Of a DNA stretch of 64,000 nucleotides, positions 7,088-58,800 are shown one piece after another. Both the position numbers and the translations under genes were made by a program. The number at the start of each line of letters is the position of its first letter. The stretch's first letter is position 1. Source of the DNA: Isoetes taiwanensis (Eukaryota > Streptophyta > Lycopodiopsida > Isoetales > Isoetaceae); contig JAJEKV010000028.1 in the NCBI GenBank assembly GCA_021234155.1, forward strand, positions 17,938,573 through 18,002,572, read 5' to 3'. Under the pieces are notes generated by a model. The model saw only the letters and a list, made by a program, of their open reading frames with translations, was not told where the DNA came from and ran no database searches.

Positions 7088-8494
<1,407 letters not shown>

Positions 8495-13498: not shown

Positions 13499-15306
13499 TC
13501 CGCGAGGTTTTGGGTTGGGAACCCAACTTCAGACGCTTCGTTTGAGGTGCCTATATACATCTCAGTTGGTGTCACTGTCTGTGTTGGTGTCGCTGCCTGT
13601 GAGGCTCCGATAGAAGCTCTAGATGGTGTCGTTGCTTGTGCTACAACACTTACCCCCGCGGACATGTTAAATGATGTCAAGCTCGAAGTGACAAACACTC
13701 AAAAGCATACTACAAAATGGCAAAGCATTGCAGATATACCTTCAGCATCTATTGCATGCTGTATTGCACGTGCCTTGCATACCGCCCTAGACTTTGCAAT
13801 TCTTCGTCGATGCAAACGCCTTTTCCTTTGTGTCTGACTTTCATTTGGAGGAGTTACGTACGAAGGGTTAGTCACCACATTTGGAGGAGTGATGTTGTTT
13901 GATGATAGCTGCACTTGGCTTGACATGGTGGAAGTAGTATCAATTACGCCATATGGCATCAGGACGCGTGTTACTTCACTCAGTTGAGTCACCCCACTTG
14001 AAAGTTCCACTTGGCTAGATGTGTTAATAGTCACATCAAGCGCACCTTCCCGGGTGTCGATAGTTTTGTTACGCCCGCCACCTCGTTGCACCGGGGTTGA
14101 GGTGCCTTAGGTCTCAAAAGCCCTCTGAATTTCACGCGGCCTTGCATACCAGCCCCTAGACTTTGCAATTCTTCTCCGGTGCAAACTTTTCCTTTGTGTC
14201 CGACTTTCATTTGGAGGAGTTATGTAGAATGGGTTGCTTGCCACCTCCGAGAGCGTGAGGGTTGTTTTTGAAACCTCGCTACTTTTGATTGGCTTGGAGT
14301 TCCAATCGTCATAGGTGTTGGTACCGGTGGTCACTCCTCTGCAAAGGTTCATAGAACACAACATTTGAAGAGTGTTGAGTACACCCAATCATCGAGTGAA
14401 TATAATACATACCTTCTCCACACGATGCATTTTCCACTTGGCTATATGTGTTAATAGTCACATCAACCGCACCTTCGGTGTCGATAGTTGTGTTACGCCG
14501 CCACCTGGTACACCGGGGGTTGAGGTGCCTTCAGGTCTCGAAAGCCCTCTTCGAATTTCCGCGTGCCTTGCATACCCCCTAGACTTTGCAATTCTTCGTC
14601 GATTGCAAACGCCTTTTCCTTTGTGTCTGACTTTCATTTGGAGGAGTTATGTAGGATGGGTTGCTTGCCACCTCCCGGAGGCGTGGCGGTTGTTTTGGAA
14701 ACCTCGCTACTTTTGATTGGCTTGGAGTTCCAATCGTCATAGGTGTTGGCACGGTGGTCACTCCCCGCAAAGGTTCATAGAACACAACATTTGAAGAGTG
14801 TTGAGTACACCCAATCATCGAGTGAATATAATACATACCTTCTCCACACGATGCATTTTCCACTTGGCTATATGTGTTAATAGTCACATCAAGCGCACCT
14901 TCCGGTGTCGATAGTTGTGTTACGCCGCCACCTGTACACCGGGTTGAGGTGCCTTCACCTGAAAGCCCTCTCAATTTCACGGCCTTGCATACCGCCCTAG
15001 ACTTTGCAATTCTTCCCCATTGCAAACGCCTTTTCCTTTGTGTCCGACTTTCATTTGGAGGAGTTATGTAGGATGGGTTGTTTGCCACCTCCCGAGGCGT
15101 GACGGGTTGTTTTGGAAACCTCGCTACTTTTTGATTGGCTTGGAGTTCCATTCGCCGAGGTGTTGGCACGGGTGGTCACTCCCGCAAATGTTCATAAAAC
15201 ACAACATTTGAAGAGTGTGGAGTACAACCAATCATCGAGTGGATATAATACATACCTTCTCCACACGATGCATTTTGAATACCACTCTCCAAACATATGG
15301 ACTTAG
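13499..15306 (-). repeat. Tandem exon-like repeats at the 5' side of the Helitron gene
   Basis: The block coding for NPSYITPPNESRTQRKRRL plus HRRRIAKSRA recurs four times on the minus strand. Its 'gactttgcaattctt' landmark lies at 13,790, 14,159, 14,582 and 15,000, giving spacings of 369, 423 and 418. A fifth, diverged version is the leader itself (TPNARRRRLHRRRMAKFKA). Each 420-bp unit also holds a donor-like GTATGT (as in 'gaaggtatgtattatattc') and an acceptor-like TTTGCAG about 75 bp later, as if each unit were an exon with its own small intron. The repeats differ mainly by small gaps and substitutions. The protein role of the basic motif is unknown to me; DNA binding is a guess. Confidence 0.85.
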
Positions 15307-18365: not shown

Positions 18366-18451
18366 GTGTTGGCAATAGTTTATGTTAAGTTTCTACTACA
18401 TGCATGCCTTCTTTGCAGGCTTATAATGCTGGATGCATCTGGAAAGCATGC

Positions 18452-19906
<1,455 letters not shown>

Positions 19907-27720: not shown

Positions 27721-28186
27721 AGCTCATATACGTGATACCCCTGCATAGAAATTTCACAATGCTTTATTTCTCACGCACAAAACTGAAGCATCCTACGATT
27801 GAGAAGAAGCGGGGCGTACAAAATTAAAGGAGTCCCATTTTGATGTTTTCTTGGAAGCTATCATATCACCATCACTTCTCGGTCATCCAATTCCAAGTTA
27901 ACCCCGTTGGGAGGAACGACCAAGCAAATGGCGCTTTGTGAAATGGGAAACCACCACGATTAGCCCTCAAAACCCACGACACAAGCAAGCCAAATGCAAA
28001 ACAAGCCAAATGCAAAGCGGAACAACACGAAACACGGAAAAAAGACCTTAAAAGGCCGATTAAACACTGCTGGCGGCAATGGGGGCGAGTTTCCTTCTCT
28101 TAATCAGCTAGGCTTGCCGTGCAGCTGGCGAAAGGCGCATTGTGGTAACGCCTAGAAAAGAACATGATATAAACGCCGAAAAAACC

Positions 28187-28630
28187 ACGTCAATTCGGCT
28201 GGATATTCACAATGGCGGGACGGATTTTTGACAAAACACAAGATCCCAATCTTAACTTGGCGAGGAGGCGGATCGATCGACGGGTCGGATTTGTGCTGTG
28301 GAGAAAAAGATCTACCTCCTCCGTCACCATTCTTTGCTCCAATCGTTGAACCCCAAAGGAAAACCCGAGGCGCCATCGGCGTGGAGAAATCGAATTGGGG
28401 CTTTTATTGTGGGCCGTTCATCTCAGAGATGGACGGCCGAGATCAATCTGTACCAATGTTTTGGTACACCAACAAGAGGGGTGCTTGGGGAGTTACGAGG
28501 TGGTGTCAGCGGACCGGTCCATCTCAAGAGATGGGTAGAGATCAATCTCTACCAAGATTTTGTGGCATAATCTCTACACCATTTGAGACTCTACATCATT
28601 TGTGGCACCCAATATAATTGTATATATATA

Positions 28631-28726
<96 letters not shown>

Positions 28727-28890: not shown

Positions 28891-31228
28891 ATAAAGGTGC
28901 GGCACATGGAAGATCAATGACCTATTAGACCAAAAGAACAATTTATTTCTTGGGGTAGGAATTTCGCTGACCAACCTAACAAAGACTAAGATAACATCAC
29001 AGAACAAATGTAATCGAAATGTTCTTAAGGTGTAAATGTGGAGATAGATGCATGTGAGACATGATTCATGTACATTGTATAAGCATTGAGGTTTTGAAAA
29101 AAACCAGTCATGTGCAAACTACCTTTTTAAAGGCACAAGGTGACTTCAGAGCGATTAAAGTTGGATCAAGGCTTAAGACCAACCAAATATTTGGCAACAC
29201 GTTGTCAATAGAATCAAGTAAGATATTTGGAAAGCGCATCCATAAATTTTCCTTACATCAAGTAACATATTTGGAAAGCGCATCCATAAAATCTCCTTAC
29301 ATCCAAACATTGGGGAGGTTAATTGTTCTAAAGCCAAAGTCTAATAATACTTAAATCAAAACCGGAAAAAGTCTTTCACTCACAACTATTTATAGCTTAA
29401 GAAATACAAAGAGGCTAGAAAAAAGAAATTGATGATAAGGAAACAAAAAGCCAAAAAAGGGAAGACTCAATGTCCCATGGTGCACATTTATGATTTCAAA
29501 CATTTGGCTTTTTCTATCACCTCTAAATCCGCACACCCAACCATTCAAATTACTCGTAATAGTCTTAATGAAATCCAAGAAGTTTAAGTCTGTAAGCGCA
29601 AGACTTGATTATGGAGGGAACGTGAAGGGTACTCCAATGAGCAATCTAGACCCAACCATTCAAATTACTTGTAATAGTCTTAATGAAACCAAGAAGTTTA
29701 AGTCCGTAAGCGCAAGACTTGATTATGGAGGGAACGTGAAGGGTACTCCAATGAACAATCTAGGATGTCTTGGACACACACTCCAAATGACCACTATAAG
29801 AGGGGTAAGAACAAAGAAGAATGGGGTACTCCAATGAACGATCTAGGATTATCTTAGACGAGCACTCCAAATGACCACTATAAGTTTGGACTTCAAAAAA
29901 CAATCATACTATGAATTGTACATTTCTTATTGTTCTCCAAGATCATTGATCTACAAAAGGTGACCTAATCCATGCAACCTAAAGTCATAAAATAATTTAC
30001 CCTGAAAGGCAAAGCATAATGCATATGGAGACACAACATTCTACCAAATTGCAAAAGTTTTCCCCCGAGCCATTATATCCTTAACTTCTTGGAGATGATA
30101 GAGTTTGCATGTCAATTTATCCTAGGATAACCAAATCTAGAGAGAAGTTTTACTTGCAACAACACACAAGTAGCGATTACATAAGAGCAAGTTGTGACTA
30201 GCCTTTTTAGCGAAGCGCATAATTATGTTTGCTGGGACACACGTGATCTGGGAGGCTTACATTCCAAAATCGGCTGTTTAATTACTCACTTCGTCGTTAT
30301 GTACACGTATTAGCAGTAAGACCTTGAAGAGGTCACAAGTTTCATTATGGGCTCTCGTTTCTTCTATGCTGCTTGAAGAGGTCACAAGTTTCATTATGGG
30401 TCCTCTATTTAGCCCCCTTGGAAACACTTAATATGAGAAAATTGTGGATCTTAGCCTGCTATTTCAAAATGGAAGTCTCCTTATTGTATTTGTTGGAGAT
30501 ACCATGTCGTACTTGGTCCTTTATTAGAGTGGCCTTAGTTTGAAAAGGGAACAAATGCATGAGGATCAATGCTCCACAAACATCCAAAGAAACTTCAGTT
30601 TGCAAAAAAATCAACACATAGCATAAAACAATCAGAGCAAATGTAAAAAACAGTGGAATCGCGGTCGGGTCAGAATGTGTGTATACGTCTAGTTGGAGCC
30701 AACTTCGGCAAACTAGCATCAGTCCCCGCCATTCTAAGCTTCTATAAAATATCCGCCATGTCGGCCTCCCGATTTAAACAGCCTCAACTTTTGCAAAACA
30801 CAAAAGGCATAAAGCCTAGCTTCACGCAAGGCAAAGAGTCACATGGATCGATTGAATTGGTGAGATAGAAGATGTGTGTGTTAATGTCGTGCAAATACAA
30901 AAGCAAGAACTCTGTAGGCTGCCAAATGATAAAATATTCTAGCAAAATCATAGTTAGTCCATCAAAATCGACGGTCAATTTTAATTGACTTAGCCTTAAG
31001 ACATAGAACACCCTTGACAGTGAGTGCACATAAAGAAAAAAGTTTACATGAGCCTTATAGTAAAAAGATCAAAATCGAACAATTTCTAACCTAGGAGGAC
31101 ATTCAAGCATGGACTAAGCCTTGGTTCAGGTTGATAATAGCAATAAGTTCAGGTTGATAATAGCAATATCATCTAAGTTGGTTATTGCACATAACGCGGA
31201 GGACTGCATTGGACTCTACACATTGGCA
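28891..31228. repeat. Non-coding stretch with several short tandem duplications
   Basis: Two 44-bp units (29,213-29,300, 'atcaagtaa.atatttggaaa') and two 115-bp units (29,536-29,650 and 29,651-29,766, beginning 'cccaaccattcaaattac') are tandemly repeated, with a partial echo ('ggtactccaatgaac') at about 29,825. 'cttgaagaggtcacaagttt' occurs at about 30,324 and 30,373, and 'caggttgataatagcaata' twice at about 31,125-31,165. No gene is recognised. Apparent open frames spanning the 115-bp units reflect the duplication. Confidence 0.75.
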
Positions 31229-33291
31229 TCTTATATTATAATGTTATAGCGTAAGTATGTCATGAATGAAACCCTAATTTGGATGGTTGAGATCATCCAA
31301 TTGCATCCGAAGACCAAGATTTATCATACGACTTCCCACCACCATGATTGGCCGTGCTCTAATGTCTGAATAGGAAAGGGAAAAGGAAAAGGGAGGAGAA
31401 AAGGGCAAAGTGAAAGGAAAAAAGGCACGGGTAAAAGGGAAAGAAAGAAAGGGAAAAAGGAAAGCGAAAAGAGAACGGAAAAGGGAAAGGAAAATAAAGA
31501 AAAAAAGGACACTACGAAAAGGAGAAGATGGAAAGAACGAGGATAGGAGTAAAAGGGAAGTTGAAAGAAAAAGGGTAGAGAGGAGGGAAGGGAAAAGGGA
31601 AAAGGAAAGAAAAGGGAAAGGGAAAGGTAAAAGAAAGGGGAAGGAGGAGGGAGTGAAAAGGAACACTGGGAAAGGGGAAGAGGAAAAAGGTGGGGAAAGG
31701 AGGAAAAAGGAGGAGATGAGGGCAAAGTAAAAGGCAAAAAGGCACGGGTAAAAGGGAAAAGGAAATGGAAAACAATACAAAAAAAGAGAAAGGAAAAGAA
31801 AGAGAGAAAATAAAGGAAAAAAGGACACTATGAAAAGGGTGAGGACAGGAGTAAAAGGGAAGGGAAAAAGGGGATGAGGAAAAGGGTAGAGAGAAGGGAA
31901 GGGAAAAGGAAAAAGGAAAAGGATAGGAGAAGGGAAAAGGAAAGGGAAAAAGGGAGAGGAGGAGGGAGCAAAAAGGGACAGTGGGAAAGGGAAAGAGAAA
32001 AAAGGTGGGGAAAGGAGAAAAAAAGAAGGGAAAAAGGACATGAAAAAAAGGAAAGAGAAAAAGGGAGGGGAGAAGGGATGGAAAGGGAAAAAGGAAAAAG
32101 CGAGGGGAGTTGCAAAAGGGAAAAGGGCATGGGGAAAAGAGGAAGAGAAAATAAAGAGAGAGGCGGAAAAAAGGAAGAGAGAAAGGAGGGAGGAAAAGGG
32201 GAAATGAAAAAAGAAAAGAACAAAGGAGGGAGGAAAGGAAAAGAAAAAGACTACGAGAAAAAGGGAAGAGGGAAAGGGTGGGCAAAGGGAAGAAAGAAAT
32301 GGCACTGTAAAAAGGGGAAGAGAAATAAAGGGAAGGGAAAAAAGACATGAGAAAAAGAAAGGGAAAAAGGAAAAATGGAAGGGAAAAGGGCACGAAAAAA
32401 AACAGAAGAGAGAAAGGGTCGGGAAAGGAGGAAAAGGGAACAGAAAAAGGCTATTGGTAAAGGGGAAGGGGGAAAGGGAAGCGAAGGGGATGGAATGGGA
32501 GAAAAGGAAAATAAATAAGGTAAAGGGAATGTGAAAAGGGGAGGGGAAAAATGGAAAGCGGGAAAAAGGGAAAAGCAAGGAGGGGGGAAATGGAAAAGGC
32601 AAACGTGAAAAAAGTGGAAGCAAATGGAAAAAGGCAAAAGGGAAAAAACGGGGGGTAGAATGGGAAAATAGAAAGGGGAGGTGAATAAAAAGGAAGAGCA
32701 AAATAAAAAAAGAAAAAGAGAAGGAAAAAAGGGAAAAGGAGGGAGAGGAGGGAAAAGATGAAAAAAGGGGAAAAGAGGAGCGAAAAAAGAGCATGAAAAA
32801 ATAGAAGAGAAAAGGGACATGGCAAAAAAGGGAAGAGGGAAAGGATGAGGAAAGGGGAAAACCGAAGGAAAAATGGACATGGAAAAAGGGAAAGGGAAAG
32901 AGGGAAAAGAAAAAAAGAGAGAGAAAAGGAAGGGAAAAGGGCACTAGAAAAAAGGGAAGATGGAAGGGCTGGGCAAAAGAGGAAAAGGGAAGGAAAAAAG
33001 GGGAAAAAAAAGAAAATGTGGGGAGAAGGAAAGGGAAAAGGGAAAAGGGAAAAGGGAAAGGAAAGGGGAAAGCAGAAAGGAAAACTTAGAAAGAAGGGCA
33101 CGAGGAAAAGGGGAAGAGGGAAAAGGGGGAAAAGGGGGAAAAGGGAAAAGGGAAAAGGTAAGGGGAAGTGCGAAATGTGTTCGAATGCTCTTGATTATCC
33201 AATTTTAAAAACATGAATCCATTTAACAATTGCTCCAGTATATCATTCACAGTTTCTAGCTATGCCCAGCAACGCTGGGCACCTTAACTAG
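31229..33291 (+). mobile_element. Non-autonomous Helitron, unit 1 of 3 (homopurine passenger)
   Basis: The element begins TCTTATATTATAATG directly after an A (31,228) and ends with the hairpin GCCCAGC-AAC-GCTGGGC (33,264-33,280) plus 11 nt ending CTAG (33,288-33,291). These match Helitron hallmarks: 5' TC, a short 3' hairpin 10-12 nt from the end, and CTRR. Length is 2063 bp. After a 140-bp mixed-sequence head, about 31,370-33,170 is almost exclusively A and G on this strand, with punctuating words such as ggcacggg, ggacatgg and ggcactag. The long minus frames rich in F, P, S and L are an artefact of that bias. It encodes no transposase. Confidence 0.9.
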
Positions 33292-35333
33292 TCTTATATT
33301 ATAATGTTATAGCGTAAGTATGTCATGAATGAAACCCTAATTTGGATGGTTGAGATCATCCAATTGCATCCGAAGACCAAGATTTATCATACGACTTCCC
33401 ACCACCATGATTGGCCGTGCTCTAATGTCTGAATAGGAAAGGGAAAAGGAAAAGGGAGGAGAAAAGGGCAAAGTGAAAGGAAAAAAGGCACGGGTAAAAG
33501 GGAAAGAAAGAAAGGGAAAAAGGAAAGCGAAAAGAGCACGGAAAAGGGAAAGGAAAATAAAGAAAAAAAGGACACTACGAAAAGGAGAAGATGGAAAGAA
33601 CGAGGATAGGAGTAAAAGGGAAGTTGAAAGAAAAAGGGTAGAGAGGAGGGAAGGGAAAAGGGAAAAGGAAAGAAAAGGGAAAGGGAAAGGTAAAAGAAAG
33701 GGGAAGGAGGAGGGAGTGAAAAGGAACACTGGGAAAGGGGAAGAGGAAAAAGGTGGGGAAAGGAGGAAAACGGAGGAGATCAGGGCAAAGTAAAAGGCAA
33801 AAAGGCACGGGTAAAAGGGAAAAGGAAATGGAAAACAACACAAAAAAAGAGAAAGGAAAAGAAAGAGAGAAAATAAAGGAAAAAAGGACACTATGAAAAG
33901 GGTGAGGACAGGAGTAAAAGGGAAGGGAAAAAGGGGATGAGGAAAAGGGTAGAGAGAAGGAAGGAAAAGAAAAAAGGAAAAGGATAGGAGAAGGGAAAAG
34001 GAAAGGGAAAAGGGAGAGGAGGAGGAGCAAAAAGGACAGGGGGAAAAGGGAAAGAGAAAAAGGTGGGGGAAAGGAGAAAAAGAAGGGAAAAAGGACATGA
34101 AAAAAGGAAAGAGAAAAAGGGAGGGGAGAAGGGATGGAAAGGGAAAAAGGAAAAAGCGAGGGGAGTTGCAAAAGGGAAAAGGGCATGGGGAAAAGAGGAA
34201 GAGAAAATAAAGAGAGAGGCGGAAAAAAGGAAGAGAGAAAGGAGGGAGGAAAAGGGGAAATGAAAAAAGAAAAGAACAAAGGAGGGAGGAAAAGGAAAAA
34301 AAAAGACTACGAGAAAAAGGGAAGAGGGAAAGGGTGGGCAAAGGGAAGAAAGAAATGGCACTGTAAAAAGGGGAAGAGAAATAAAGGGAAGGGAAAAAAG
34401 ACATGAGAAAAGAAAGGGAAAAGGAAAAAATGGAAGGGAAAAGGGAAAAAAAAAAAAAGAGAGAAAGGGTGGGGAAAGGAGGAAAAGGAGAGGAAAAAGG
34501 CTATTGGTAAAAGGGAAGGGGGAAAGGGAAGTTTAAGGGGATGGAATGGGAGAAAAGGAAAATAAATAAGGTAAAGGGAATGTGAAAAGGGGAGGAAAAA
34601 ATGGAAAGGGGAAAAAGGAAAAGCAAGGAGGGGGAAATGGAAAAGGCAAACGGAAAAAAAAGTGGAAGCAAATGAAAAAGGCAAAAGGAAAAAACGGGGG
34701 GGTAGAATGGGAAAATAGAAGGGGAGGTGAATAAAAAGGAAGAGCAAAAAAAAAAAAAAAGAGAAGGAAAAAAGGAAAAAGGAGGGAGAGGAGGGAAAAG
34801 ATGAAAAAGGGGAAAAGAGGAGCGAAAAAAAAGAGCATGAAAAATAGAAGAGAAAAGGACATGGCAAAAAGGGAAGAGGGAAAGGATGAGGAAAGGGGAA
34901 AACCGAAGGAAAATGGACATGGAAAAAGGGAAAGGAAAGAGGGAAAAGAAAAAAGAGAGAGAAAAGGAAGGGAAAAGGGCACTAGAAAAAAGGGAAGATG
35001 GAAGGGCTGGGCAAAAGAGGAAAAGGGAAGGAAAAAAGGGGAAAAAAAAGAAAATGTGGGGAGAAGGAAAGGGAAAAGGGAAAAGGGAAAAGGGAAAGGA
35101 AAGGGGAAAGAAGAAAGGAAAACTTAGAAAGAAGGGCACGAGGAAAAGGGAAGAGGGAAAAGGGGAAAAGGGGAAAAGGGGGAAAAGGAAAAGGAAAAAG
35201 GTAAGGGAAGTGCTAAATGTGTTCGAATGCTCTTGATTATCCAATTTTAAAAACATGAATCCATTTAACAATTGCTCCAGTATATCATTCACAGTTTCTA
35301 GCTATGCCCAGCAACGCTGGGCACCTTAACTAG
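33292..35333 (+). mobile_element. Non-autonomous Helitron, unit 2 of 3, fused head-to-tail to unit 1
   Basis: Unit 2 starts TCTTATATTATAATG with no base between it and unit 1's CTAG. The two units are near-identical, differing mainly by small A/G indels (2042 versus 2063 bp). It ends with the same hairpin (35,306-35,322) and CTAG at 35,330-35,333, followed by T. A direct 3'-to-5' joint without an intervening host base is what termination read-through during rolling-circle replication would give. Long open frames on both strands (up to 355 codons) are low complexity and not credible genes. Confidence 0.9.
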
Positions 35334-35335
35334 TA

Positions 35336-37169
35336 TCTTATATTATAAAGTTTTAGCGTATGTCTTCAATCAAACCCTAATTTAGATAGTTGAGATCGTC
35401 TGATAGCATTCGAAGGCCGAGATTTATCGCACAACTTCTCACCACCGTGATTGGCCATGCTCTGATCTCTTAAGAGAAAAGGGAAATGGCGAGAAAAGGG
35501 CAAAGTGAGAGGCAAAAGGGCGCGGGTAAAAGGGAAAGACTTGAGAAGGAAAAGGAAAGGAAAAGAGCACGAAAAAGGGAAAGAAAAGAAAGGGAGAAAA
35601 GGAAGGAAAAAGGACACTATGAAAAGGAAAAGGGGGAAAGGGTAAGGACGTAATAAAGGGAAAAGAAAAGGGGAAGGGAGGAAAAGGAAGAAAAATAGGG
35701 CAACGGAAAAAAGGTGAAGACCGGAAAGGGTGACTAAGGGAAAAAGGGGAAGATAAGAATGATGTAGAGAAGGAAAAAAGGGCATGGAAAAATAGAAAGG
35801 GAAGGAAAAATGAGGCAAAAAAGGGAAAAGGGCATGAGGAAAAGGGAGAGGGAAATGAGAGAGGAAGGAGAAAGTGGCACGAGAAGAGGAAAAGGGTGAG
35901 GAAAGGAAAAAAAAAAGAAAGGCAAAAAGAGATGGAAAAAAGAGAAAAGGAAAAGGAAAAGCAAAAAGAGAATGGAAAAACATGGAATAGGAAAAAGAGG
36001 AAAAGGAAAAGGGGAAGAGGGTGGGAAAAGGAGGAAAAGGGCATGTGAAAAGGTGGAAAAAAAATGGAATGGAAAAGGTGTGGGAAAATGGAAAGGAAAA
36101 GAGAGAAGGAAAAAAAAGGGTGGAAAGGAAAGAGGAAAAGGGCATGGAAAAAGAGAAAAGGATGAAAAAAAGAAGGAACAGGAAAAAGGAAATGGGAGGC
36201 GAAAGGGGAAAGAAAAAAGAACACGAGGAATAAGGAGGGAAAATGGAAAAGAGGAAGGGAAAAAGGGCACATAAAAAACTGGAAGAGGGAAAGGGTGAGC
36301 AAAGGGTAAAAATAAAGGGAAAAAGAGCATAGGGAAAGGGAAAAGAAAAAAAAAAGGGGGAAGAGGGTAAGGCGGAAGAAAAGGCAAGTAAAAAGAAGTG
36401 GAGAAAAAGGAATGGAAAAATACATGGGAAAAAGGAAAAAGGAAAAAGGAAAAAGGAAAAAGGAAAAAGGAAAAAGGAAAGGGAAAGAGAAAAGGAAGGG
36501 GGGAAGGAAAGAGGAAAAGGGCAATGATGAAAAAAAGGTGGGGAAATGATGAAAAAAAAGAAGGAAAGGGAAAAGAAAAAGGGAGGCGGAAAGGGGGGAA
36601 GGAAAGGAAAAAGGCATGAGAAAAAAAAGGAAGAAGAAAATGGGAAAAAAAGAGACATGAGATAAAGAAGAAGAGGGTGAGGAGAGGAAGAAAAAACAAA
36701 AAAAAAAAGGTGGGGAAAAGGGAATGCAAAAAGGGCATAAGAAAAGGGAAGGGAAAAGAGAAAAGCAAAAAAAGGAATGGGAAAAGGAAAGGGAAAAAAA
36801 AAGAGCATGAGAAAAATGGGGAAGGGTGGAGAAAGGTGAAAAGGGAAGGAAAAAAAAGCCAAAAAAAGGGAAAGGGAAAGGGAAAAATGAGAAGGAGAAA
36901 AGGAAGGAAAAGAGGAGGGAGAAGAGGGTAAAAAAGAAAAGAAAAAAAGAGAGAGAGAAGGAGAAAAGTAAATGTGCAGGAAAAATAAGAAAAGGGAAAA
37001 AAGAAAGTGTGTAAGAAAATGAGGAAAAAAGGATAGGGAAGGTTATCAAATGCACAAAAACCTCTTATAGCCTAGATATGATGAACTTGGTTAATGAGTC
37101 TAAGCTGAATAGGTTTCCATCCACAAATGTTCCCAACATTTGCCCAGCAACGCTGGGCACCATTACTAG
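35336..37169 (+). mobile_element. Non-autonomous Helitron, unit 3 of 3, older and diverged
   Basis: The unit begins TCTTATATTATAAAG after A (35,335) and ends with the same 17-nt hairpin (37,142-37,158) and CTAG (37,166-37,169) followed by T (37,170), so its own A/T target site is intact. The head (to about 35,470) is clearly homologous to units 1 and 2 but substituted. The homopurine passenger (about 35,470-37,045) differs in detail and includes a run of eight AAAAAGG heptamers at about 36,427-36,478. Length is 1834 bp. It contains no coding sequence. Confidence 0.88.
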
Positions 37170-37369
37170 TACATATGATATTGTCGTTTAAAATAGATTA
37201 TAAATTAATTGTTCATAGAACCATGTGTTTCTACATATCTGAACCTAGCAGAAATCATCATGCCAGAAGATGCAACTAATATTTTGCTTAGCTCTAGGTG
37301 AAGCTGGGGTAACATATCCAAATGCCACAAAACTTGGAAATCAATACTCCAAAAATTGTCGTAAATGTT

Positions 37370-37545
37370 CTGGAATCTCAAGGGAATCTTAGGGAACTTA
37401 ATAGAATCCAAGTGCATCTTCATAAAATCTTTGAGAATCTATGGGGTCTTGAAGAATGTAGGGGAATCTATATAGATCTAATGGAATCTAGGGGAATATA
37501 CATAGAATCTAAAAAAATAAGGGGAGGAATCTAAAGGATCTCCTT
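37370..37545 (+). repeat. GAATCT minisatellite patch
   Basis: Irregular gaatct, gaatcttag and aaatctttgagaatct words lie 10-15 bp apart, resembling the arrays at 7.4-8.3, 18.8-19.7 and 48.4-48.9 kb. It is not adjacent to an AT tract here. Confidence 0.75.
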
Positions 37546-40500
37546 TTTGGATCAAGCATTTATCCTTTGGCTAATGCGATCGTACATTCTCTTATAGCAC
37601 ACAAATACACCTCAAACAACTTCCTATCATCCACCAGGAACTGATGTGGCCGTAATTTTGTATACATGTTAAAGTCACCAATCCACTTTGAGTAAGTCCC
37701 CAATGAAAATTTAGTTCTATGGTGCGCATTTTGGCCCGACATAAGAGAGCAATGGAGCTAATAAAATAACGGTACAAAAGATCCAGCAATCCAAGATAGA
37801 CAACAATCCGCTAGATTTTACAAATCTCTCCACATTGTTAACATACATAAGGAATAATGACTTTCTTCGTAATTCCTGTCTAAACTACATAATTCATATC
37901 TAAACTACTGCACGGATCTTTAAATTTGTAGTTGCAGCAAAATGCTCACATATAAGAATTTTTCCAATTATAATACACCATGTCATTAGACCAACATCAA
38001 AATATGTAGCAAATATGGTATAATTCAATTCTATGATTTATCCTATTACGACTGCTTCATAAAGGCTAGAACATCCTCTTTCATTGTATATGTTTCTTCC
38101 ATTTACTCTTTTCAAAACTTATGGCGCATTTATAAGTGATGTCCGCCTAATGTTTCAAGTAGTTGAAACCTCAATAGGGCAGTATAACTCTACTGCAACG
38201 GAGGGCTTCAACTTTGTCATTTCCGAGGCAATGGCTGAGGGAGTCATTCCGTTTAATAATAAAAAGCTTATCGTAGCAAGAAGACCTCGTATAGGCTCCT
38301 CAAACTCAAACGTCTTAAACTTTGGAAATAAAAAAGAGGGACCAGAACAGTTTTGATATATTGGCATCATATACAAAGGCAGTAGAACCATTTTTTAGCT
38401 GCCGTTGTTATATCCAAGAAAATGGGACCTTTCAGCCAATTTCTCCCTCAACTCAGAATCCAAATATAGACTCCGGCCAAAATAAACCTAGGAAAAAAGA
38501 TAACGCCAAAATGCCGACCGATCATTATGAACACATCTCCCCGGCCGACTATGAATGATACTTCCCATTCTCGCATATGAAAGCAATATACAATATCAAT
38601 TAAATGTGGTAACTCTACCTTGGCCAACAATATAGCTGCTTTATGGGCCACAATCATTTAATGCATTCCTCATTGCGGTGCTAACTCCTCGCATTCTCTA
38701 GTCACATAGAGATCAAAGCTTAAAGCAAATGTTCACAATATGTTGGCCTCTCAAGTCCAACATTTTACACCGGACAAGATTTGCAATCCCCAACCCAATC
38801 AATTTTTTCTTTTTCTTTTGCCCTCTAGAACCTCCATGCATTCATGTCCCTAAATGGTGCTTCTCCTTGCCAAAAACACCCCGCCAAAGACTAACCTTTT
38901 GGAGCAAAAGGAATCGCGGAAGCCGACCACCTATCCGACACCAAAACCTATAAGTTTCCCAAGTATTGTGATGTATTTCCAAGAATCGCCTTCAAAATGT
39001 AGCAAAACCTCTAAGTTTCCCAAGGAGCAACACATCGCGTAATGTATAGAATGACCACCAATTAAATTATCGCCCTTCTAACATCAAACATACCCCTGCT
39101 TTTTGTAAGTAAAACCATCGGGCACACCCCTTGAGACTACAATTACGTAAAATGCTCGATAAAGGCAAAACATAAAGTGAACTAACCTCATTTTGCAAAG
39201 ACGTTGTACTTGTCACATGTATTATGCATGATAGCCATATTATGTCTTTTGTTATTGCTCAACATCTTTGAACAATCGTAAACAAACTCCTCGACACATG
39301 GCACATGTATGGTCCCTTTTAATAGACAAATCAAGGCAATGCACCTTTAATAGTCCCGTTTGCATGCACAACTTGTCTTTAATGCTCTTGCAGAGCATCA
39401 AATATAGTTGGCACATACTCATCATGTCAATGCAGAAGAATATAAGTTTTAAAAGTATTAATACAAATAGTCCGGGCGTAAAAATTGTAAGAAATAAGAA
39501 GCACCTTGTCTTTAATATCGATGGGGGTAATGCAAAGACACACGATAAGTTTTGACAAATTTCTTAGCAAGATCTAAGTTATCCGATCCGACAAGAATTT
39601 CTCCGCTTGCTCGACAGCCCCAAGCATTCATCGCACGTAAAACCCCGATCCTTAACTACTGTGGGCAACCTCATCATTGTATTTTATAGTCCCCGCACAT
39701 ATATCAACATTTCAACCAATTAACGCCTTTTAATCTCTAATTCTAATACCTTGGTGGATCGATCTCGCTTTGAAATCAAGGTCGACGCAGCTTTGGATCC
39801 TCAGAAGAACAACACCGCATTTAGAGTAATGCAACAATGGACAAAGAGTTTGAGTAATACTACTAGCTAGCTAAATCAAAGAGCCTTTCCTTGAACTGCA
39901 AATGCAACATTTGCATCAAAGAAAACGTGAAATACATGCGCTTAGCATTGGGATCATTTCAATCTTTGGCCTTGCCACAAAGAGATTAGAAAAGATCACC
40001 GATGAAATGATAGATTTTCAAACATAACATTACCACCAAGCCGACCATGACCTCTCGTGACTTGAGGTCTCAGAGACTTATCAAGTAAAATAGCCAGCCC
40101 ATCAACAATAAGCTCAGCCGGTCAAAATGGGTAAGCTCAACCATGAACCCCGGAGAAAACCATCAACAACCGATGAAACACATACCTGGCCATGCCGATC
40201 AAACAAAACCACGTAAATAAAAGGTCGATTTATCAAGAAAAATGAAACAAATGGAAACGTTAAGAAGTCGGACTGAACAAATGCAATGAATATCGAAACA
40301 AAAATGCAAAGACACCGCCGCAATAGAAATCATTCTTGCTTCGCTTAAATGGTTCACTCAAATTTAGAACCAACCCATTCCTAGTCTGGTGATCAAGGTG
40401 TTCTTGAAATTGCCTGATAAGTGCAACAGAGCACGAAGTCATAAGTAGACTAAACCCGGTTCCTTCTTTCCCAAACCAAGAGAGCATCATATTAGCATAA

Positions 40501-43664: not shown

Positions 43665-43683
43665 CTAAAAAGGTCGCACGATA

Positions 43684-44530
<847 letters not shown>

Positions 44531-55575: not shown

Positions 55576-55849
55576 AAAATTGACTACAAAGACAACTTGC
55601 TTTCCAAGGTCAACTCTATACCAACATCTACACTTGCCAATGAAACAAGAAGCAGTAAGGAGCTATAAAATTGACTACAAAGACAACTTGCTTTCCAAGG
55701 TCAACTCTATACCAACATCTACACTTGCCAATGAAACAAAGAAGCATGTATGAGCTATAAAATTGACTACAAAGACAACTTGCTTTCCAAGGTCAACTCT
55801 ATACCAACATCTACACTTGCCAATGAAACAAAGAAGATGTATGAGCTAT
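55576..55849 (+). repeat. Three tandem 91-92-bp units
   Basis: Units begin aaaattgactacaaagac at 55,576, 55,667 and 55,759 and end near 'gagctat'. They are almost identical, indicating recent amplification. No open frame runs through all three. Confidence 0.95.
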
Positions 55850-58800
55850 GAAAGATACCCATGGTAATGATGATGGCCATTCCTTAGCAAAAAGTTCAAA
55901 GAACAAGATGGTTCTTCTCTCGGGTGATCATAGATCCATCACCAAGATTCTAAAAAACTAAGCAAGGTCACTCACCACACATTCCCATATACAAAGCGAG
56001 ATGCTTCACTCTATTAAAGACTCAAATGGATAAGCTTACAAATGTTCAGCTTGTTTCCTAAACATTCGAAGTCACCAAATAGAAGCTTTTCCCACGCTCC
56101 AATTTTTAAACATTAGGTTTCATAAAAGACTCGTACTCTTTTCGCTCAAGAAGAAGACTCAAGTCAAGAGAAAGCAACCTCTTTTCACAAGGTATATTAC
56201 ATGAGGCAAATGCCAACCCAGATATATACTTACAAGCCCCTCAAGCTTAGGTCGTCATTCCAAAGTCGCTTTAACTTCAACGAGAATGATTCTATAATGC
56301 ATGAATAAATCTGATTGCCAAGGTCTCAATTACAAAATATGCTTGATCGACATCAAAGAAAGCCTTCTAAACATTCTGCCATTTATGTTATAAAAATGCT
56401 TTATCATTTGTTACCCAATGCCAAACTCACGCTATACAAATGCATTGCATGTTAAAAAAAATGCTTTAGCTACCTTAATGCCAAACTCACGCTAGATAAT
56501 GCATTGTTAGCACGCATCAAACCTCTATTTCCAACTATTACGTATACTTAAAATCTAGCAATTTCACAGCCACATAAATGCCGCAAGAACGCTTAGAAGG
56601 GCAAGATAACCCACCGAACTACTAGTGTGCATCTTGATCCGCCAAAAGATTTCTTTGTATGTATTGCCAATGGTGACGTAAAATATAGGATCCGTGCATC
56701 CGCCATTGAAAAATTAACAACATAGGAGGAATCAAATGCCATCCGACCATTGAAATCATCACCTATGTCCGTAGTATCTGCTGCAAACTCCACAAGAGTT
56801 CCAAAAGAATATCCTCTACCGATGATGCATTCAAGGTCTATTTTGTGTCCTTACAGAAGTAGCGTGTGTTCCTTCCGGATTCATTAACCATAGTATTGCC
56901 ATAATAACCTACAATTTTAAACAAACCATAGTTAATTAAGCAAGAAAGTGAATCAAATAAAACTTCACAATCACACAAGATTTCACGTGATATGCCCCAT
57001 CACATAGCCATGAAACCGCGAATATATCGGGCAAGATCCACATATTGTTTAACCCATTGGCCATTGCCATAGCCATGGAACCGCAAGAGATCCGGCAGAG
57101 CAATCAAAACCACGCAATCATATGAAGCATTCCGCCACAAATAGAACATGAACAAAGCAAAGAGCACAAGATTTGCCTTTATCCCCAGATAGTCACCATT
57201 TCCAAATGTGAATCGATCACGAATCCTCGCCATCGCCATGGTGTCCATGCCGAGTATCCCGATATTAATGTAATCCAAGACATCAGATCTTGTATGACAT
57301 CCTAACAAAAATTCAAGGCAACTTTTTTATACAACTACTAAACTAAAAGCACTTCTACTTCTTCCAACTTACAACCGAAAGTTACTATGCAAAGAAAGAT
57401 GTCGCCAAGGCACTTGCAGACAAGTGACATCATTTGGTTTCTCAAGATCTTTTTTGCATTTGCCAAGAGAGTTTGAGCACATCTTTGCCTCTTTGAATCT
57501 TGAAAATACTCCGCAATTGCCGCAATCCAAGAGAAAACATTTTCGCAAGCATCCCTGGCAAAAATCGCGATAATTATTCTTAAGACATGAAATACATCTC
57601 CACAAGAGTGCTACCAACAAATGAGTCTCAATTAAACCCTGATTGAAATGCTTCAAAGAGTAATTAGTTTTCCATGTTTTACGTAACATGCACTAGGAAT
57701 GGTAATAAAGTCTTGTTCCATTACCTAGAAAAGTTCAAGGGCTTGCTTAGAATCACATTATTTTGATTAATCACCATATCAAATGTTTCAAGCAGCTTGT
57801 TTGTGTAAATTGCAAAAAAAATAGAGCCAAATGTAACTAGCAAGTTTGATATAGATAAAGGCCTCTCGCCATAAAACCTTACACCATAAAATAGAAATCC
57901 TCTTGTAGAACATAGAGCATCAACTTACCCAGCCATCATGAAACCGAAACCGCCAGAGCTTTAAGAGCATTTTGGGGTAACGATTTACCCACCCCCTAAA
58001 CCTCGATCTTATGCTTCGATTTTGGCACAATGCTGGCGAGGAGATCAATAAATAAGAGACAAGTATCAATGTAATCTGCGGCAAGAGTCTCTCAACATCT
58101 TTTCAACCGTATATTTTTTTGTATGTAATGCCATCCTAATGGACAAAGAGCAATGTATACCTTCGTAAAATCAAGGTTTCTCCTCGAACCGCCTTTTCTC
58201 ACATAGATCGCCAAATTTTTATTTCGCAGAAGGTCCTCGATCGCCTATAAGTATCATTCATCCTCCAAGAGAAATAAAAGCTAAGCAAGTTAAAGGATAT
58301 GGTTTCAGCTTCATACCCGGTAGAAAGATCGGGCCATGGTACCCAAATGTAACCGACGACCGATGCAAAGGTTATAATCGGTTCTCAGATTTTCTTTGAA
58401 TCAATAAGCCGCATTCACAAGACAAAAATGCATCACTTGAGTGTCTTACCTTCTCCTTTGCTCGCCTACATGGCCACAAGTCGTCTGCGGTGCTTTGCTT
58501 TGTAAGCATCCGTTGGAATATGTCATGCATATACAATCGAAAAAACCCTTGCACTTAATGGCCAAATCAAAAATCTTAAATTCGGTGGCATACCTTATAA
58601 AACTTCCGTGCAGAAGCTTTGAAGATATCCCTGATGTTCGACTTGCATTTCTTCTTGTGAACATATCAAGAAAATGGAGAGGAACGGCAGTCTGCTCATA
58701 GCTCAGAAGACCATCAAACATACACCAAAAATGGCCATAGCCCTTGCTTCCAACAAATACGACAAAGGAGATCAAAGTCAATGATAAATCCCAAAAAATA

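Follow-up and report, generated by a model that had tools for sequence, protein, structure and literature searches.

The 64-kb stretch of Isoetes taiwanensis DNA analysed here (the window) contains three Helitron units that lie head to tail in a single orientation. The first two abut without an intervening base, and the third, a diverged relative, follows after a dinucleotide that is read as host DNA. The features of the array and its immediate flanks are as follows.

31225..31228, + strand: host sequence GGCA to the left of the array; canonical left target base A at 31228
31229..33291, + strand: Helitron unit 1, 2063 bp; runs from TC through a purine body and a hairpin to CTAG
31369-33171, + strand: purine body of unit 1; degenerate nested repeats
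33263..33281, + strand: 3' hairpin of unit 1; 8-bp stem, 3-nt loop
33288..33293, + strand: joint CTAG/TC between units 1 and 2; zero bases between
33292..35333, + strand: Helitron unit 2, 2042 bp; shares 99.26% identity with unit 1 over 2022 aligned bases
33432-35213, + strand: purine body of unit 2; degenerate nested repeats
35305..35323, + strand: 3' hairpin of unit 2
35334..35335, + strand: TA spacer between units 2 and 3; probably of host origin
35336..37169, + strand: Helitron unit 3, 1834 bp; a diverged relative whose ends show the features of units 1 and 2
35476-37049, + strand: purine body of unit 3; degenerate nested repeats
37141..37159, + strand: 3' hairpin of unit 3
37170..37173, + strand: first bases of the host sequence to the right, TACA; canonical right target base T at 37170

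All three units begin with the TC characteristic of Helitron 5' ends (31229, 33292 and 35336) and finish with CTAG, matching the CTRR of Helitron 3' ends (33288-33291, 35330-35333 and 37166-37169). A 17-nt hairpin core, GCCCAGCAACGCTGGGC, is exact in each unit and belongs to a slightly longer hairpin (8-bp stem, 3-nt loop) positioned six bases upstream of CTAG, corresponding to the short G+C-rich hairpin found shortly before the 3' end of these elements. With up to three mismatches allowed, this core has six matches in the window, which are the three unit sites on both strands, against a chance expectation of 0.03. Both strands of the 64 kb were scanned for hairpins with an 8-bp stem containing five or more G/C and a loop of 2-4 nt, followed shortly by CTRRT; the three unit ends were the only structures found. 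When folded as single-stranded DNA, the 3' ends of units 1, 2 and 3 give -9.7, -9.7 and -9.2 kcal/mol, with z values of -4.3, -4.1 and -4.7, respectively. The 17-nt 5' pattern has three zero-mismatch matches in the window, located at the three unit starts; taken alone this count is weak, since 13 of 100 shuffles gave at least three matches at up to three mismatches. Viral contigs scanned with the 3' and 5' terminal patterns returned no stretch for either, and no inverted repeat of at least 40 bp was found in 30000-38500.

Canonical Helitron insertion takes place between A and T. The flanks follow this pattern with no target duplication: A stands to the left of units 1 and 3 and T to the right of all three units, while the base to the left of unit 2 is the terminal G of unit 1. 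A preliminary description of this DNA had proposed three same-orientation units, each running from TC to the 17-nt hairpin plus CTAG, with the CTAG of unit 1 (33288-33291) directly abutting the TC of unit 2 (33292) and with TA and then the TC of a diverged unit 3 after unit 2. The termini, hairpins and flanks bear out this account of Helitron identity, orientation, joints and target bases. A check set in advance, that the conserved ends of family members coincide with the TC and CTAG positions, also came out favourably in one diverged copy (unit 3; n = 1).

The bodies of units 1, 2 and 3 consist of 91.7, 91.9 and 91.2% purine on the + strand, compared with 59.4% in the highest 1-kb window elsewhere in the 64 kb, and are built from nested repeats such as one with a 311-bp period in unit 2 (78% matches). 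A repeat-built body of more than 90% purine is an unusual Helitron cargo, and a literature search on purine-rich Helitrons gave no title on the subject among the 15 of 313 matches listed. The longest open reading frames (ORFs) of the array reach 603 aa on the - strand; these were rejected as genes and attributed to composition, as stops are few in a pyrimidine-rich strand. A Pfam search at E 0.01 gave no match across 8 of the 21 listed array ORFs, and the units therefore look non-autonomous. No Rep or Helitron helicase Pfam family was matched across 19 of the 24 ORFs outside the array within the window. Such domains mark autonomous members only, and the lack of a match in the array ORFs searched is expected of a non-autonomous copy. 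Overall, the array looks like three non-autonomous Helitrons of one family, which presumably transposed by a rolling-circle route and may have been moved by a transposase encoded elsewhere.

Several further repeats are present in the window. A direct duplication (7088-8493 and 18452-19863, about 11.4 kb apart) is 99.3% identical over 1413 aligned columns, with 2 mismatches and 8 gap openings, and holds part of a DUF4371-like ORF with a weak Pfam score (copy at 18366: 31.6 bits against a cut-off of 32.1). Tandem repeats occur at 13759-15276 (period about 417-427 bp, 84-95% identity between pieces) and at 55576-55853 (three copies of about 91-92 bp). A dispersed repeat at 28183-28724 and 43683-44317 is 78-87% identical and ends in long TA-type simple repeats near 44.2 kb, and a 23-bp unit is found in two exact copies at 31124-31168, about 60 bp left of unit 1. 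No tRNA was found in the 64-kb window, nor any Rfam match at gathering score.

Units 1 and 2 are nearly identical, differing by 15 substitutions, 36 deletions and 10 insertions, with 2007 of 2022 aligned bases the same (99.26%). The first 245 bp and the last 119 bp are identical, and collapsing homopolymers leaves 5 substitutions and 12 indels, with identity at 1016 of 1021 aligned positions. A first MAFFT alignment, with 87 substitutions and 19 gap events, was replaced because it forced run-length shifts into mismatches. The pair had been described as a perfect dimer, a term that does not fit these 15 substitutions and the 46 indels that accompany them.

Unit 3 is far less similar: it matches unit 1 at 113 of 136 aligned positions in the 5' terminal region and at 82 of 107 in the 3' terminal region, a difference of 17-23% in the alignable ends. 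As judged from sequence comparison, this divergence speaks for membership of another subfamily rather than for an earlier insertion, and it does not date the insertion of unit 3. Using unit 3 to polarise the differences between units 1 and 2, attempted by eye, was dropped, as the purine body aligns too loosely. The target bases are equally neutral with respect to order. Removal of units 1 and 2 leaves unit 3 at GGCATA/TACATATG, an A/T target, and the preliminary description had noted that it also restores an ordinary A/T target at GGCA/TATC; removal of unit 3 instead leaves the pair at GGCA/TA/TACATATG, again an A/T. Both insertion orders therefore fit, and the earlier designation of unit 3 as the older copy is not sustained. 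Unit 3 would have inserted independently into this A/T-rich site, two bases from the pair and either before or after its arrival, and the empty site deduced from the sequence is GGCATATACATATG.

Perfect head-to-tail joints have served as evidence for rolling-circle concatemers, and the exact CTAG/TC joint between near-identical units that is expected of such a product is present here. At the level of single nucleotides, the locus also makes clear why this joint by itself does not settle the matter. When unit 1 is removed, the site reads GGCA/TCTTATATT (also given as GGCA/TCTTATATTATAATG), a canonical A/T target. A Helitron begins with T, so that behind a host A it rebuilds A/T at its own 5' border, and a second, independent insertion into the A/T in front of unit 2 would therefore give the same CTAG/TC joint. 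Both joint insertion of the two units and insertion of one after the other fit the joint and the target bases, and the joint alone does not diagnose a concatemer. Nor is the CTAGTC hexamer unusual in itself, with 17 occurrences in the window against 15.7 expected; it counts by its position between two complete units. The ambiguity was already pointed out in 2008 for a maize pair, where regeneration of A/T was named as a route to the CTAG/TC joint; the same paper relays an opposing view from Pritham and Feschotte, who expected independent copies to be separated by a host A (PMC2267711).

The best explanation, given slightly less than an even chance, is that units 1 and 2 entered together as a head-to-tail dimer at GGCA/TA. 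This reading is slightly favoured over successive insertions, because the joint that links the near-identical pair is the one observed experimentally in Helitron circles (PMC4778049). The exact CTAG/TC joint, the canonical A to the left of unit 1 and T to the right of unit 2, and the 99.26% identity of units 1 and 2, whereas unit 3 is clearly diverged, are all consistent with a common event. Several observations count against it. A canonical insertion of unit 1 at the A/T before unit 2 yields the same joint, units 2 and 3 show that separate insertions occurred two bases apart at this site, and units 1 and 2 are not identical. Both units also retain intact terminators, so no lost terminator explains a bypass. 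According to a review, transposon dimers in Drosophila were moreover judged to arise mainly through insertion-site preference (PMC12628747). The weighting of the two leading explanations sets the near-identity of units 1 and 2 against the second insertion seen at the same spot (units 2 and 3), and this weighting, like those of the other explanations, is a judgement, not a computed value.

The preliminary description held that a dimer produced by rolling-circle read-through, through missed termination, was the simplest reading. A dimer is slightly preferred, but it is not the sole simple reading, given that A/T is rebuilt in front of unit 2, and missed termination on a chromosomal copy would capture host DNA. 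In the Helraiser system, read-through carries flanking DNA past the 3' end in about 11.7% of events (PMC4778049). To yield an exact CTAG/TC dimer, by contrast, the element would have to pass through a circle, be replicated for a second lap or start from a tandem donor. The dimer may accordingly have arisen when a circular intermediate went through two laps of copying, or it may derive from a pre-existing tandem; simple read-through of a single chromosomal copy is less likely. It is tentatively suggested, with somewhat less confidence than the joint entry of the pair, that the integrated full-length dimer with both terminators intact records a two-lap rolling-circle product inserted into A/T, and that the body of more than 90% purine (+ strand) might favour a second lap by causing replication to stall or slip.

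A serious competitor, though rated below joint entry, is that unit 2 inserted at GGCA/TA and a near-identical unit 1 later inserted at the regenerated GGCA/TC. The array would then have grown through independent canonical insertions, to which a preference for A/T-rich 5' ends may have contributed. The A/T target at GGCA/TCTTATATTATAATG after removal of unit 1 agrees with this history, as does the 2-bp interval between units 2 and 3, which indicates that the site took separate insertions. Precedents have been reported: adjacent maize Helitrons with unlike cargo share the same CTAG/TC joint and were judged consecutive (PMC2267711), and in Fusarium a FoHeli4 element precedes the 5' end of another by 2 bp (PMC5148889). 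This history costs one extra event, in which a copy sharing 99.26% identity with its neighbour hits the exact dinucleotide; had near-identical copies recently spread in a burst, that event would be cheap.

An assembly or consensus artefact, in which only a single unit exists here or the second was misjoined or derived from poorly resolved reads, is considered unlikely. What speaks for it is the distribution of differences between units 1 and 2. All 46 indels fall within offsets 668-1934 and none within 141-667 of the same purine body, although this indel-free part makes up 29% of the body length and holds 82 of its 285 runs of at least three purines (P about 1.3e-7 by length share and 1.7e-7 by share of such runs, with the border chosen post hoc). 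The indels are mostly run-length changes, with unit 2 the shorter in 36 of 46, resembling uneven consensus quality. However, the joint coincides precisely with the ends of both elements, as a random misjoin seldom would, and the indels are accompanied by 15 substitutions, of which four lie where indels are absent. Uneven quality within unit 2 would also not by itself remove the joint. The affected interval of unit 2, 33959-35235, carries all 46 indels relative to unit 1 and may be of low consensus quality or patchily homogenised; the clustering reflects either partial homogenisation of the pair or a poor consensus of unit 2 in that interval.

A host tandem duplication or unequal exchange that copied unit 2 is very improbable: tandem duplication does make near-identical head-to-tail copies, and one shared base (T) is present at both breakpoints, but both breakpoints would need to hit element ends by accident, and unequal exchange between units 2 and 3 would bring the TA spacer into the new joint, which contains no TA.

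In comparison with known systems, the array is a clean example of an arrangement already documented, as the exact joint, the 2-bp neighbour and tandem copies are all in print. Tandem Helitron arrays are known in plants and bats (PMC5876387), and three copies in tandem are reported from Metarhizium acridum (PMC5148889). The adjacent Helitrons of maize AF466202 are likewise head to tail with CTAG followed directly by TC, however their cargo is strongly unlike and they were judged consecutive, whereas units 1 and 2 here are 99.26% identical (PMC2267711). Junctions in Myotis lucifugus are also perfect head-to-tail joints and were read as tandem repeats, in a different family and host (Pritham and Feschotte 2007, via PMC2267711). 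FoHeli4 of Fusarium oxysporum resembles units 2 and 3 in its insertion 2 bp upstream of the 5' end of another element, but its downstream partner is a 5' terminal partial sequence, and these elements are described as non-canonical Helitrons (PMC5148889). Truncated plant Helitron arrays are likewise tandem Helitron repeats in plants and have been explained by rolling-circle amplification, although many have several 5' ends and one 3' end (Xiong et al. 2016, via PMC12628747 and PMC5876387); arrays attributed to a lost terminator are described in a review as having several 5' ends, often with just one 3' end (PMC12628747). The present array departs from that form, with both ends in all three units and a hairpin plus CTAG in each. 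Helraiser circles have the same precise TC-to-CTAG joint, but they are extrachromosomal and were observed in human cells (PMC4778049), whereas the Isoetes pair is integrated. Should further family members be found, together with a site that is empty or half filled, the locus could be used as a test case for distinguishing concatemers from successive insertions among such arrays.
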